Below, piece by piece: positions 10,060 to 63,528 of a stretch of 64,000 bases of DNA; position 1 is the stretch's first letter; the number at the start of each line of letters is the position of its first letter. Source of the DNA: Ahniella affigens. Its GTDB lineage: Bacteria > Pseudomonadota > Gammaproteobacteria > Xanthomonadales > Ahniellaceae. The stretch spans positions 2,418,001 through 2,482,000 of the forward strand of contig NZ_CP027860.1 of the NCBI RefSeq assembly GCF_003015185.1, written 5' to 3'. Under the pieces are notes generated by a model. That model had not been told where the DNA came from, did not search any database, and saw only the letters and a program-made list of their open reading frames with translations. Position numbers and translations under genes: made by a program.

Positions 10060-10665
10060 CTACAACCACCCCTTCTGCCGCGCGATCCGGTACGCCTCAA
10101 TCCGGTTGTCGACGCCGAGTTTGCCGATTGCTTCCGACAGGTAGTTGCGGACCGTGCCGTGCGACAGATTCAGCTGCGTGGCGATGTCGTTCGCCTGCAT
10201 GCCCTCGCCCGCCAGACGCAGGACTTGGCGCTCACGATCACTCAGCGGATCCGCTTCCGACCACGCGTCCAGTGCCAACTCCGCATCGACCGCCCGGCCG
10301 CCGCGGTGCACCTTTCGAATCGCATCGGCGAGCTTTTCGGCTGGAGAATCCTTCAGGAGATAACCACTCGCACCCGCCTCCAGCGCCCGGCGCAAATAAC
10401 CGGGCCGCGCAAACGTGGTCAGAATGACGATCTTGGTCGGCATGCCGGTGTCACGAACCTTGGCCGCGAGCTCAAGTCCGGTGAGCTTGGGCATTTCGAT
10501 GTCGGTCAGCAGCAAATCCGGGCGCAACCGACGTACCATTTCCCAGGCTTCCTCGCCATCGCCCGCAGAGCCCAGTACTTCCAGATCGGACTCTAGTTTC
10601 AGCAAGGCCGCCAACGCGCCGCGCACCATCGCTTGATCTTCAGCCAACAACACTCGGATCGGCAT
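10060..10665 (-). CDS. NarL/DesR-type response regulator
   Basis: 201 residues: a receiver domain (1-120) with phosphoacceptor Asp55 in LLLTDIEMPKLTG and Lys in GYLLKD, then a LuxR-type helix-turn-helix (about 140-195) with LSDRERQVLRLAGEGMQANDIATQLNLS-type sequence. It starts 2 bases after the stop of the histidine kinase gene and so forms one operon with it. The pair resembles DesK/DesR. The usual ABC-transporter or desaturase target genes are not adjacent. Confidence 0.92.
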   Translation of the reverse strand: MPIRVLLAEDQAMVRGALAALLKLESDLEVLGSAGDGEEAWEMVRRLRPDLLLTDIEMPKLTGLELAAKVRDTGMPTKIVILTTFARPGYLRRALEAGASGYLLKDSPAEKLADAIRKVHRGGRAVDAELALDAWSEADPLSDRERQVLRLAGEGMQANDIATQLNLSHGTVRNYLSEAIGKLGVDNRIEAYRIARQKGWL

Positions 10666-10667
10666 GC

Positions 10668-11837
10668 TTACCTCGACGACACCAGTTTTAAGGCCACACG
10701 CCGGCCTGCCGATTCATCGCCAGACCCGTCGATCGGCACATGCACCACCAGGCGCGTACCGCCGCCCAGGGGCGAATCCAACTCCAATGTACCGCCCACC
10801 GCACTCAGCCGCTCGCGCAAGCCGCGCAAGCCATTTCCAGATTCAGTGACGCCGCCGCGGCCGTCGTCCTCGATTTCCAGGCGCACGAGATCGCCCGCCT
10901 TTTTCATCAGCAAGCGACACCGCCGGGCGTTGGCGTGGCGGATCACGTTCGTGGCGGCCTCGCGCACGACAAAACCGAGGACGCCTTCGATGTCCTGATC
11001 CAGGACAACCGGCTCCGCCTCATATTCGAAATCGACGAGCGCCGCCGACAGCGCAACCTTGATGTTGGCAAGTTCGGCCAGCATTCCCGGTGCGCGCATG
11101 CCGCTGACCGCGCGCCGCACCTCCATCAGGGCTTTGCGGGAGATCCGCTCCACTTCGCGCATCTCGGTCGCTGCCGCAGCGGGATCCCGCTCCGCTAACC
11201 GACTGGCCAACTCGGACTTCAACGTAATCACGGACAGCGTGTGGCCAAGCAGGTCATGCAAGTCCCGACCAATACGCTCACGTTCGGCAACCCGGGCCAT
11301 GTTGGCGAGTTCCTCCTGCGACAGACGCAAAGCCTCGTTGCGGCGGGCGTTGTTGTACCAGATCTTGCAGCCGATCGCCGCCATCAATCCGGGGAACACG
11401 ATGCCAAAGCCCCACACAGTCGTCGGCATGCCAACCAATTGGTAGGTCAGCCAACTGACAGCGGACGTCGCGGCAATGAACGATGCCATGGCCGACCAGC
11501 TCATGTGCGCAACAAGCACCCAGGAGTAAATGAGAAACACCCCTGCCATCAGATTCGCCGGCATCAACGCCAACCCAATCATGTTGATCAGTGCCAGCAC
11601 GACGAGGCGTCGCGCCCCACGCTCCCAATAGAACCGAAAGTACAGAGGCAGAAACAATGCGACAGCGATGCCTGTGAACCACCAGTTGACCTGCGCATTG
11701 CCGCGTGGCATGACCAATGGCAAGAACAGCATCAACAGGTAATTCAACGAGAAGAACGGCATCGCACCCGGTTCGTTGACGGGGGGCAACAGGCGCTGCC
11801 GAATTTGCTTTTCAAGACTGTGCCAAGGGTGCGCCAT
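10668..11837 (-). CDS. DesK-like sensor histidine kinase
   Basis: 389 residues. Five or six transmembrane helices occupy about 30-160. A HisKA_3-type dimerisation domain follows, with His194 in GRDLHDLLGHT, and a HATPase domain (about 285-375) with VREAATNVIRHANARRC (N box) and DDGRGG (G1). There is no periplasmic sensor domain, so the signal is probably sensed in the membrane, as for DesK; this is inference. It is the first gene of the operon with the response regulator. Confidence 0.92.
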   Translation of the reverse strand: MAHPWHSLEKQIRQRLLPPVNEPGAMPFFSLNYLLMLFLPLVMPRGNAQVNWWFTGIAVALFLPLYFRFYWERGARRLVVLALINMIGLALMPANLMAGVFLIYSWVLVAHMSWSAMASFIAATSAVSWLTYQLVGMPTTVWGFGIVFPGLMAAIGCKIWYNNARRNEALRLSQEELANMARVAERERIGRDLHDLLGHTLSVITLKSELASRLAERDPAAAATEMREVERISRKALMEVRRAVSGMRAPGMLAELANIKVALSAALVDFEYEAEPVVLDQDIEGVLGFVVREAATNVIRHANARRCRLLMKKAGDLVRLEIEDDGRGGVTESGNGLRGLRERLSAVGGTLELDSPLGGGTRLVVHVPIDGSGDESAGRRVALKLVSSR

Positions 11838-12010
11838 AGACGTTCCTGCAGTGATTTGGTTTCAGGCAAGCCCGACGGCTGCTCCAAGGCACAGGATACC
11901 GGTCGCCAAAGGAGACACCAATCGCAGGCGCCAAGTCCGAAGGCTGACACCTGTCATTCCAAGTGTGCAGCGCCGTGAGGCGTTGCAAAGTCGCATGTTC
12001 CCGCTAAGGA

Positions 12011-12154
12011 GCCTCTGAACAAGTTCAGAGGCGATGCGGGCCATGGATGGCCCGCCCAGAATCAAACACGCAAGTGGTTGATTCTGGAGCACTGAGTCCG
12101 GACATGTGCCGGACTCAGTGCGGGTCTGAAAGTCCAGGATGGACTGATTCAGAC
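12011..12154 (+). repeat. Five-hairpin repeat, copy A
   Basis: Five consecutive inverted repeats: GCCTCTGAAC/GTTCAGAGGC (12011-12032, 10-bp stem); GCGGGCCAT/ATGGCCCGC (12036-12055); CCAGAATCAA/TTGATTCTGG (12056-12087, inner CAC-GCAA-GTG); CACTGAGTCCGG/CCGGACTCAGTG (12090-12120); and GTCTGAA-AGTCC/GGACT-TTCAGAC (12124-12154). No gene is visible in 11838-12460. The region separates the divergent desK-like operon and aminotransferase gene. Confidence 0.85.
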
Positions 12155-12164
12155 CAGCAAATAC

Positions 12165-12281
12165 TGGCCATGGATGGCCCGCCCAGAATCAAACACGCAA
12201 GTGGTTGATTCTGGAGCACTGAGTCCGGACATGTGCCGGACTCAGTGCGGGTCTGAAAGTCCAGGATGGACTTATTCAGAC
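12165..12281 (+). repeat. Five-hairpin repeat, copy B (lacks hairpin 1)
   Basis: This is a direct repeat of copy A at an offset of 127 bases, identical over about 105 bases (12041-12145 against 12168-12272). It keeps the second to fifth hairpins, the second one shortened. The last stem differs from A only in its bulge (TA instead of GA), so the paired part is unchanged. Confidence 0.85.
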
Positions 12282-12460
12282 AATCCCTAAGGCGACGTTC
12301 CCGCCTCAGGGTTTGCGGATCGCAGAGGTGCTGCAGCGAGCGTTTTCCAGGACACATCGGGCATGAGTTCAGGCTTGGGGGTTACGGCGAAAACGCCCGC
12401 CTGATAGCATGGCAGCTTACTTTTTACTGACTGACCGGGCTTGCCCGGGTGGGAGTTGCT

Positions 12461-23632: not shown

Positions 23633-23642
23633 AACCTAGGGA

Positions 23643-23785
23643 GCATCTGAACAAGTTCAGATGCGATGCGGGCCATGGATGGCCCGTCCAGAATCGGGCA
23701 CGCAAGTGCTTGATTCTGGAGCAACGAGACCGGACACGTGCCGGACTCGTTGCGGGTCTGAAAGTCCAGGATGGACTTAATCACA
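23643..23785 (+). repeat. Five-hairpin repeat, copy C
   Basis: Same layout as copy A. The first stem is GCATCTGAAC/GTTCAGATGC, a C-G to A-T compensatory change. The fourth stem is GCAACGAG.CCGG/CCGG.CTCGTTGC, with two compensatory pairs against copy A and one mismatch. The loops GCAA (third hairpin) and ACACGTG (fourth) are close to those of A. The 3' arm of the last hairpin is decayed. No gene is seen in 23540-23962. Confidence 0.85.
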
Positions 23786-23962
23786 CCCGCCCTAGCAAAT
23801 GGCTGACCGTTGGCACCGTGAGTCCCAAAACGCGTCGGACGCATTCGAGTTGCGTTTTTGCAACCATCGTCAAATTTCCACCAACCCCATGGGCAGGCAA
23901 ACGACGAGCCAGTAAGCTTCCGTCACGCATGTCGCGTACTGTTTACTTGTGGAGACTCCCTG

Positions 23963-61415: not shown

Positions 61416-61588
61416 GACTGTGCTCCTCGCATCGTTAGTGGACGGAATGCGCCATCACGCGTCGCCGCGTTGCTCATTGGCACGCACTGGCAGCCGGTTC
61501 ACGAAGGCGATGCTTCGTGGCGATGACAACGCAGTTGCTTAGTCACATCCCAGTCCACAAAGTGTCGCTTCTAAGCGATCTCTAACGC

Positions 61589-61731
61589 GCCTCCGAAGAA
61601 GTTCAGAGGCTGCAGCGCCGTGGCTGGCCCGCTCGCGGTCGGGAGCGCACCTGCTTCGCTCCAGCGCACTGAATCGGGACAGATGACGGACTCAGTTAGG
61701 GACTGAACTTTCAGGATGGACCAATTCAGCC
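61589..61731 (+). repeat. Five-hairpin repeat, copy D (diverged)
   Basis: First stem GCCTCCGAA/TTCAGAGGC; a middle part with GGCTGGCC; the fourth stem ACTGAATC/GACTCAGT; the last stem CTGAA/TTCAG with the GGATGGA core. The spacing follows copy A, but many loop bases have changed. The rest of 61416-62100 shows no gene; the ferritin-like gene has GGGAGG just upstream of its ATG. Confidence 0.65.
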
Positions 61732-62100
61732 CATTGGCAACAGTTTGCGATCGCGTTCTCGCGTCCTCTCAAAACTGTGCGCCTCGGCTTCTGGTGAGCT
61801 CGTCGCTCGACCATTCGATCGCGGCATCACATTAGGCAGCGAGAACTTTGATCCTCGCGACACTTCATATCGCAAGCCAGCTAGCGGTCTTCGCTGCGGC
61901 GGCTCGACTACTCGGGAGCATGTGCATGACATCCTTGAAAATCATCCATTGGCGATCACCGACTGCATCGCCCGTATGGGTGCCGCTGGACATCCAAACA
62001 CTCGGTGCCGACAACGCCAATTGTCACCATTCGGCGCCTTCAAAAGGCCTGATGGCGTACGCGGTGGGCAGGCTCGCCGCCCCGAATAACGGGAGGCATC

Positions 62101-63528
62101 ATGGCTAAGCGACAACATGCAGGCGTTCCGAGGATCGTTTGGCGGCACGCCCCCTCGGAAAAGCTGGCCGCATACTCCAGGACGAGCGCGCGCAAGATCG
62201 TCGAGACCGAGATGGGCCCCGCACAGGCCCGGATGGTTGCGGCCTTGTTCAAGACCGGGGTGCCGCAGACTGAAGGGGCATCGACACCACGAGAAGACGC
62301 GATCGGTCTGTTGAAGGTCGCCGCGGAGGTAGAACACGCCTTGATGGTCCAGTATCTTTACGCGGCGCAATCCGCCCATGCTGAAGTCGCGGACATCATC
62401 AAGCAAGTGGCCATTCAAGAAATGGGTCACTTGATCACCGTACAGAACCTGCTCCTTGCCCTGACGGGCATCTCGGACGAAGGCCTGCCCGCGTCGCTTC
62501 ATCTTGGGCGAGATGGAATCCGGGTCTCCAGTGAGCAGAACCCCATGCCGCTCGTACTTGAGCCACTCTCAAGAGAATCCCTTGCGAAATACGTTGTTGT
62601 CGAAAGGCCGTTCGAGATTGCTGATCCAACGCTTGCAGCACGCATCGAAAAGCTCGAGGCCCTGCTTGCCAGCAACAGCTTGTCACCAAACCCAGTATTC
62701 GAGATCTATGCAGCCATTCGCTGGATCTTCCAAACCGATGACCAAGCTGATCTCGCTGGACTAGATCTCGGCTCCATGCCGTTCGTTGCTGGCTGGCACT
62801 TGAAAGACGACGATTTCATCCCCCGAGCCATTAGTCTCGATTACGCGAGTCAAGCAGCCGATTGGGGGTCAAAACCCGGGCTGATTGTGATGCCTGCTTC
62901 AACGCGCGAAGAAGCTCTTGCGGCCATCGATGCAATCACTGCGCAAGGAGAAGGCTTGCCCGGCGCCACTGAATCGCACTTTGCCAGCTTCATTTCTGTT
63001 CTCGATCAATTTGAGACCGGGACCATACCGGCGCGCGCACTGGCGCGAACGCCATTTGTGCCGTCACAACCAGATCCAGAAGACCAAACACCGACGCCGA
63101 TCACGAATCCATACAGCGCACTCTGGGCTGAGCTCTTCAACTGCCTCTACGAGCTCATGCTGATCGACATCAGCTGGGCGATCTCGCTGAAGCGCAGCGA
63201 ACCATCACGAAGCGCGATGATTAAGATCGCAATCAATATGATGAGGCGGGTGCTTGGCCCGCTGGCTGACTACATGTCGGCTCGGCCTGTTGACAATGAT
63301 CCAAGCAACATCGCCGGCCCGACCTATGGTTTGTCCGACGAGACCCTGCCGACAACGACTGCCACATTCGCCGCGCGCTACACAAACCTTCGAAGCAGGC
63401 AGAGCCAGTGCATTGCAGCGATTCGTGCCCACCCCGAATTCGCTACAGACGTCACCGGCAAACAGCGACTGTCGCGGATTGAGCAACTTGATACCGAGCG
63501 CGCTCCCAACTTGCCAGAAGGAATCTGA
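62101..63528 (+). CDS. Ferritin-like (VioB/imine-dimer-synthase type) protein
   Basis: 475 residues with GGGAGG before ATG. A ferritin-like four-helix domain starts near residue 65: LLKVAAEVEHALMVQYLYAAQSA, then IQEMGHLITVQNLLLALTG, the two ExxH motifs of the iminophenyl-pyruvate dimer synthase (VioB-like) family. The C-terminal half (about 250-470) is helical and of unknown role. It lies three bases before a LodA/GoxA-type oxidase gene, so it may act in maturing that enzyme or in the same pathway. That is inference. Confidence 0.75.
   Translation: MAKRQHAGVPRIVWRHAPSEKLAAYSRTSARKIVETEMGPAQARMVAALFKTGVPQTEGASTPREDAIGLLKVAAEVEHALMVQYLYAAQSAHAEVADIIKQVAIQEMGHLITVQNLLLALTGISDEGLPASLHLGRDGIRVSSEQNPMPLVLEPLSRESLAKYVVVERPFEIADPTLAARIEKLEALLASNSLSPNPVFEIYAAIRWIFQTDDQADLAGLDLGSMPFVAGWHLKDDDFIPRAISLDYASQAADWGSKPGLIVMPASTREEALAAIDAITAQGEGLPGATESHFASFISVLDQFETGTIPARALARTPFVPSQPDPEDQTPTPITNPYSALWAELFNCLYELMLIDISWAISLKRSEPSRSAMIKIAINMMRRVLGPLADYMSARPVDNDPSNIAGPTYGLSDETLPTTTATFAARYTNLRSRQSQCIAAIRAHPEFATDVTGKQRLSRIEQLDTERAPNLPEGI

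Follow-up and report, generated by a model that had tools for sequence, protein, structure and literature searches.

The window analyzed here, a stretch of 64,000 nucleotides from Ahniella affigens, carries several copies of a small, hairpin-rich element, all lying on the plus strand. At positions 12008 to 12286 is a two-module element of 279 bp, in which a 5' terminal hairpin (H1, 12011 to 12032), which includes the left terminal repeat, is followed by two rounds of a series of four hairpins, H2 to H5. In module 1, H2 (12036 to 12055) has the hexaloop AUGGAU, which is of the ANGGAX or Csr/Rsm type; H3 (12056 to 12087) has the GNRA-type loop GCAA; H4 (12089 to 12121) has the loop ACAUGUG; and H5 (12123 to 12155) has the loop AGGAU (A-GGA-X). 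The second module (12163 to 12282) repeats H2 to H5 without H1. The whole is enclosed by a target-site duplication, with CTAA at 12004 to 12007 and again at 12287 to 12290. A sequence-only reading of this DNA had described four stretches, A to D, each with an ordered series of five stems. All four are present and the order of the stems is confirmed, but A and B are tandem modules of one insertion between the two CTAA, and B, which has no first stem, has four stems rather than five. Copy C is a single-module element of 152 bp (23640 to 23791) between CTAG duplications at 23636 to 23639 and 23792 to 23795. Copy D (about 61586 to 61735) is an old, decayed single-module element with worn ends, whose H2 loop has no GGA (GTGGCT) and whose H5 loop is still AGGAU. 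The substitutions that had been reported between A and C are real: stem 1 changes from C-G to A-T, and stem 4 has two compensatory changes, with one unpaired T-to-A change in C as well. The predicted RNA fold of A plus B lies at a z score of about -16 relative to chance on either strand. Beside the A-B element is a pair of genes for a LuxR-type response regulator and a HisKA_3 histidine kinase (10060 to 11837), and a gene at 62101 to 63528 encodes a ferritin-like protein that weakly matches the C-terminal portion of VioB.

The true ends of the element are GGAG...CTCC, and the YTAR duplications lie outside them; the element starts with GGAGCCTCTGAACAAG and finishes with ...TTCAGACCCTCC. Element lengths of 152, 279, 406, 533, and 660 bp correspond to H1 followed by one to five 127-bp modules, and only 3 of 36 elements with recognizable ends have lengths outside this 152+127n series. 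The longest arrays, of about five tandem modules, are found in the same genome at C1:62656-63313 and C1:3397651-3398236. Four copies in this genome (near C1:2293839, 1081991, 2344187, and 1363496) have a REP-like second hairpin (CCCCGGCCTTCGCCGGGG or close to it) inside the H4 loop.

Among the 36 elements with recognizable ends, 28 have identical 4-bp flanks, and of the 27 elements that have YTAR on both sides, the flanks match in 23, where 8.6 would be expected by chance. A YTAR target duplication is typical of the IS5 group. The genome also carries a 1,223-bp IS5 element with 18-bp terminal repeats, GGAGGGTCTGAACAAGTC. The terminal inverted repeats are shared between the two: the right end of the small element, GGAGGGTCTGAATAAGTCC, matches the IS end at nearly every letter, and its left end is the starting sequence given above. 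The transposase of the 1,223-bp IS matches NF033581 with 325.6 bits (cutoff, 140) and also PF01609. The genome has 15 such transposase loci (PF01609), of which 13 have a 344-amino-acid open frame, and 13 of the 15 loci have both IS ends, each with matching YTAR flanks. The small element itself has no coding capacity. From this match of the right end to the IS end, we infer that the IS5 element mobilizes the repeat. Based on ends that match a full IS5, the 4-bp YTAR duplications, the dispersal of the copies, their intergenic sites, and the internal amplification in 127-bp steps, we conclude that the repeat is an IS5-group MITE, that is, a small, non-autonomous, transposase-dependent element of many gammaproteobacteria. 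The earlier suggestion of a mobile structured DNA is thus borne out. In one IS5 transposase frame (L032:1072-2100), an internal ATG lies in the context CAUGGACC / CAGCATGGACC, which is itself an ANGGA motif; should translation in fact begin at this ATG, the transposase mRNA could be a target of CsrA.

A REP element mobilized by a RAYT was considered and is ruled out by the 152-bp multi-hairpin unit, the inverted repeats, and the target duplication. REP/RAYT elements consist of a single short hairpin with the tetranucleotide GTAG and make no target duplication. Window copy A and the copies L308 and L307 have no match in plasmids, and L307 has none in phages.

The four copies first described are a small part of what the genome contains. 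Scoring 40 out of 258 candidates gave at least 103 matches, a number that includes antisense matches to H4, which is palindromic; a contiguous 1.66-Mb stretch has 83 elements or fragments. None of these 83 overlaps a coding sequence, although 81.6% of the stretch is called coding by our own ORF caller, and in two other genomes 1 of 40 elements is inside a called coding sequence. The intergenic position that had been noted in the window therefore holds well beyond it. Between tandem genes, elements in three genomes are in the sense orientation 30 times and in the antisense orientation 32 times, so that there is no orientation bias, and the transcription-related role that had been proposed for the insertion sites is not supported. 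Elements are in convergent gaps 26 times and in divergent gaps 11 times, compared with 97 and 148 background gaps, respectively (P = 0.0006), an excess that arises because promoters are avoided. We found no sign that copies serve neighboring genes, and because orientation relative to genes is random, no copy needs to have such a role.

The element is not confined to this genome. A DNA search of 61 genomes, including that of A. affigens, gave matches in 11, and a strict core pattern was present in 11 of 398 genomes of the order (7 of 98 genera). Carriers among 59 stretches include Thermomonas, Arenimonas, Rhodanobacter, Tahibacter, and MAGs. A covariance model built from 39 sequences (R1) matched at least 117 of the 398 genomes of the order (45 of 98 genera) and at least 53 of 369 genomes of the class (40 of 272 genera); these prevalences and the copy numbers are lower bounds, based on 7 scored candidates per genome in the order and 8 in the class. 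Paired positions covary strongly between genera. The hairpin order H1 to H5 is kept in relatives, but the terminal repeats that their end hairpins follow vary (GGAAGCTCTGA..., GCAGGCTGTTGA..., GAGAGGTTGTGA..., and GGGCAACGCTGA...), and therefore the inner core is carried between ends of different kinds. Tandem modules are also found in G552, where the step is 126 bp, and in G415 (115 bp).

Across genera, it is the structure rather than the sequence that is conserved, as the sequence-only reading had claimed. In an alignment (A2) from which L055 (a single hairpin), L091 (which has lost its ends), and several nearly identical sequences were left out, 28 of 39 pairs are changed on both sides, and covariation is 0.392, compared with 0.139 ± 0.008 for shuffled partners and 0.06 to 0.08 for slid partners. 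Hairpins were then scored by Watson-Crick pairs only, with G-U and A-C mispairs treated alike, and the two kinds of mispair were counted. In 61 loci, nearly all of them one per genome, there are 71 G-U and 19 A-C mispairs; 37 loci have more G-U, 7 have more A-C, and 17 are ties. In 48 further loci, the counts are 53 and 30 (24 loci versus 8, with 16 ties). Pooled, the 109 loci have 124 G-U and 49 A-C, with 61 loci leaning to G-U, 15 leaning to A-C, and 33 ties. Six antisense matches and L236, which has the same sequence as L184, were omitted from the later counts; a few genomes are represented repeatedly among the 109 loci, and one of the 109 (L182) is a copy from the A. affigens genome. The excess is confined to the strand read from H1 to H5, with G-U and A-C changing places on the complement, and this one-strand excess is pointing to RNA.

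In contrast, private changes in the A. affigens genome, which arose after insertion, produce 23 G-U and 26 A-C. Mutation is balanced in these private variants, and a mutational strand bias is therefore rejected as the source of the excess. Variants shared among copies of this genome have 26 G-U and 16 A-C (P = 0.16). Sorted by age, copies of at least 93% identity have 26 G-U versus 9 A-C distinct states, copies of 80 to 93% identity have 35 versus 30, and older copies have 19 versus 22. From these counts by copy age and the balance of private changes, it appears that the spreading lineage has been kept foldable on one strand and that single copies decay freely. Within the genome the H2 loop is kept no better than the stems, and single copies therefore look neutral. 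The H4 loop swaps A..G for G..A between genera (ACATGTG versus GCATGTA), as would be expected if a non-Watson-Crick pair were being maintained, and the H4 loop and the GNRA-type H3 loop are partly conserved.

The high-affinity Csr/Rsm motif is a hexaloop ANGGAX placed directly on a stem, and an N-less A-GGAX variant is weaker, according to the portion of PMC4005645 on binding motifs, from which, with that of PMC4894983, we took the rules for the motif. H2 is a hexaloop A-N-G-G-A-X straight on its stem, and ANGGAX is present in this loop at 86 of 109 loci. In the 106 loci that were parsed for position counts, only the A and the GGA are conserved: A at position 1 (91 loci), G at position 3 (97), G at position 4 (102), and A at position 5 (97). 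Position 2 is T in 50, G in 34, C in 12, and A in 10, and position 6 is T in 76, C in 16, G in 11, and A in 3, so that the free positions of H2 coincide exactly with the N and X of the motif. The H5 loop has GGA at 86 of 109 loci, mostly as AGGAT, AGGAA, or AGGAC. Each module thus has two candidate Csr sites, H2 and H5, and modules are repeated up to five times. The spacing between the GGAs of H2 and H5, about 90 nucleotides, differs widely from the optimum of 18 nucleotides that PMC4894983 quotes for one CsrA dimer, which speaks against the reading as a CsrA ligand.

Since the seed sequences of R1 had GGA loops, there was a risk of circularity, which was tested with a second model (R2) built from H3 and H4 alone (44 sequences) and thus blind to the loops of H2 and H5. 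R2 matched 47 of 326 genomes of the class at an E limit of 0.01, which is looser than the 1e-4 of the R1 searches. Among the best R2 copies from 30 genomes in 22 families (one of them, L352, from A. affigens itself), 24 have ANGGAX in the hairpin just upstream, and 22 have GGA in the H5 loop. By comparison, ANGGAN was found on 2 of 544 hairpin strands outside the elements (6-base gap, at least 7 pairs). H2 was not parsed as ANGGAX in 6 of the 30 loop-blind copies and in 23 of the 109 other loci, and some of these are extraction failures.

The A. affigens genome has three csrA genes. The best CsrA is canonical and reads MLILTRRVGETLMIG...; a second csrA-like gene lies at C2:146851-146997, on a small contig of about 149 kb, and the third at C1:5188337. 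All 53 of the class genomes matched by R1 have csrA, compared with 313 of 369 overall (P = 8e-5; P = 0.002 in near-complete genomes; membership of the 53 was checked by eye), but the association is weak, since genome size and completeness are confounding factors and both csrA and the element may be missing from small genomes. G405, a 75% complete genome matched by R2 only, has no csrA match.

The reading that we favor, at a probability of roughly 60%, is that the element is a MITE mobilized by IS5 that carries as cargo an RNA module predicted to bind CsrA/RsmA. IS5-family transposases would mobilize the MITE in trans. Its cargo would be a hairpin RNA module, read on the H1-to-H5 strand and maintained by selection that acts on the lineage that propagates, as is suggested by the cross-genus covariation together with a one-strand G-U excess that is absent from private changes. 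The processed RNA that had been proposed for this repeat gains some support from the surplus of G-U on one strand and from the conservation of GGA in the loops. The transcript is predicted to bind the translational regulator CsrA/RsmA at two sites per module, with more in arrays. The element may accordingly be described as a possible mobile sponge or docking site for CsrA/RsmA. We infer that its most likely effect would be competition for CsrA when read-through transcribes the copies, and arrays would strengthen this effect. On this evidence the element is best read as probably a selfish one whose RNA would bind CsrA/RsmA. A broader version of the proposal, which we consider tentative and rather doubtful, is that transposable RNA modules, forming one family spread through the class, have evolved to bind CsrA/RsmA, with each insertion adding at least two decoys and transposition re-setting the Csr regulon of the host. 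Such an element might gain by freeing transposase mRNAs, or those of other mobile elements, from repression by CsrA.

The element could instead be an ordinary IS5-derived MITE that has no role as RNA, with hairpins that are DNA palindromes kept by template-switch correction or by the needs of transposition. Its MITE status, the decay of copies after insertion, and the lack of bias in gene orientation all agree with this. However, strand-symmetric DNA processes predict equal numbers of G-U and A-C, which is what the private changes have and the 109 loci do not. Such processes also leave unexplained why a loop should have four fixed and two free letters across 22 families while the stem beneath it is rewritten, and we therefore think this explanation unlikely. 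Somewhat lower still we place a structured RNA with another partner, such as a different RNA-binding protein, the ribosome, or an RNase, in which the GGA loops merely resemble Csr sites. The partial conservation of the H3 and H4 loops is consistent with another partner, as is an H2-H5 spacing less than ideal for binding by a CsrA dimer, but H2 is free to vary just where the Csr/Rsm motif is, at N and X, and H5 most often has the known N-less variant as its loop.

The excess of convergent gaps would also fit a transcription terminator or a stabilizer of mRNA ends from which the flanking genes benefit. This we consider very improbable: avoidance of promoters accounts for that excess, tandem insertions face both ways in nearly equal numbers, and the window copies have no T run after H5.

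In agreement with the sequence-only reading, which knew no named family for the repeat, neither Rfam nor the papers searched gave a match. In the window, only a tRNA reached the Rfam gathering cutoff, and none of the hits at that level belongs to the element; the best score near the element was 20.1 bits for RsmW (cutoff, 52; E = 0.34), which is not significant. A literature search on MITEs, IS5/YTAR, Xanthomonadales repeats, and CsrA with mobile repeats, with few subscription journals in its coverage, found no such element. MITEs are mostly viewed as passive debris, while the cargo of this one matches both the fixed and the free positions of an RNA-protein motif across families. If its transcript binds CsrA, transposition would offer a means of adjusting the dose of a global post-transcriptional regulator, and many intergenic hairpins that lack an explanation in these genomes could be tested as Csr sites.

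IS5 MITEs are already known as a kind, and the new point is the Csr-type loops. Like other IS5-family MITEs, the element has terminal repeats, a 4-bp YTAR duplication, no coding sequence, many dispersed intergenic copies, and a full IS5 in the same genome; unlike them, it has an interior that did not arise from the IS by deletion, and its conserved multi-hairpin core is common to elements with different ends. The BOX elements of Streptococcus pneumoniae are also small, mobile, and modular, with an inner module that can be repeated, but they differ in host phylum, sequence, module, and ends, and we know of no GGA loops in them. A 2024 review of MITEs names MITE-derived small RNAs and, where it does so, gives their targets as unknown. 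The QMITE elements of Coxiella, which are the sources of Cbsr3, Cbsr13, and Cbsr16, are bacterial MITEs that yield small RNAs, but QMITE2 has duplications of 7 to 9 bp, and the account of these RNAs in PMC10969869 gives targets as unknown and states no link to Csr. The 5'tnpA small RNA of Salmonella IS200 is likewise a mobile-element RNA in post-transcriptional regulation, and the authors of PMC12594629 suggest, in their remarks on its GGA motifs, that it be tested with CsrA because of them. As described there, however, it is a processed transposase 5' untranslated region of an IS rather than a MITE in which a hexaloop of the Csr type is conserved. The Csr/Rsm sponges CsrB, RsmY, RsmZ, RsmW, and Xanthomonas RsmU resemble the element in having several A(N)GGAX stem-loops, as set out in the relevant portions of PMC4005645 and PMC7694677, the latter of which derives the RsmA sponge RsmU from an mRNA 3' untranslated region. 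If the present reading is true, relatives of Xanthomonas would have in this element a source of Csr sponges that is mobile, besides the 3'-derived RsmU; the known sponges are single-locus RNAs, in contrast to the element described here, which is a high-copy transposable repeat with a predicted transcript.
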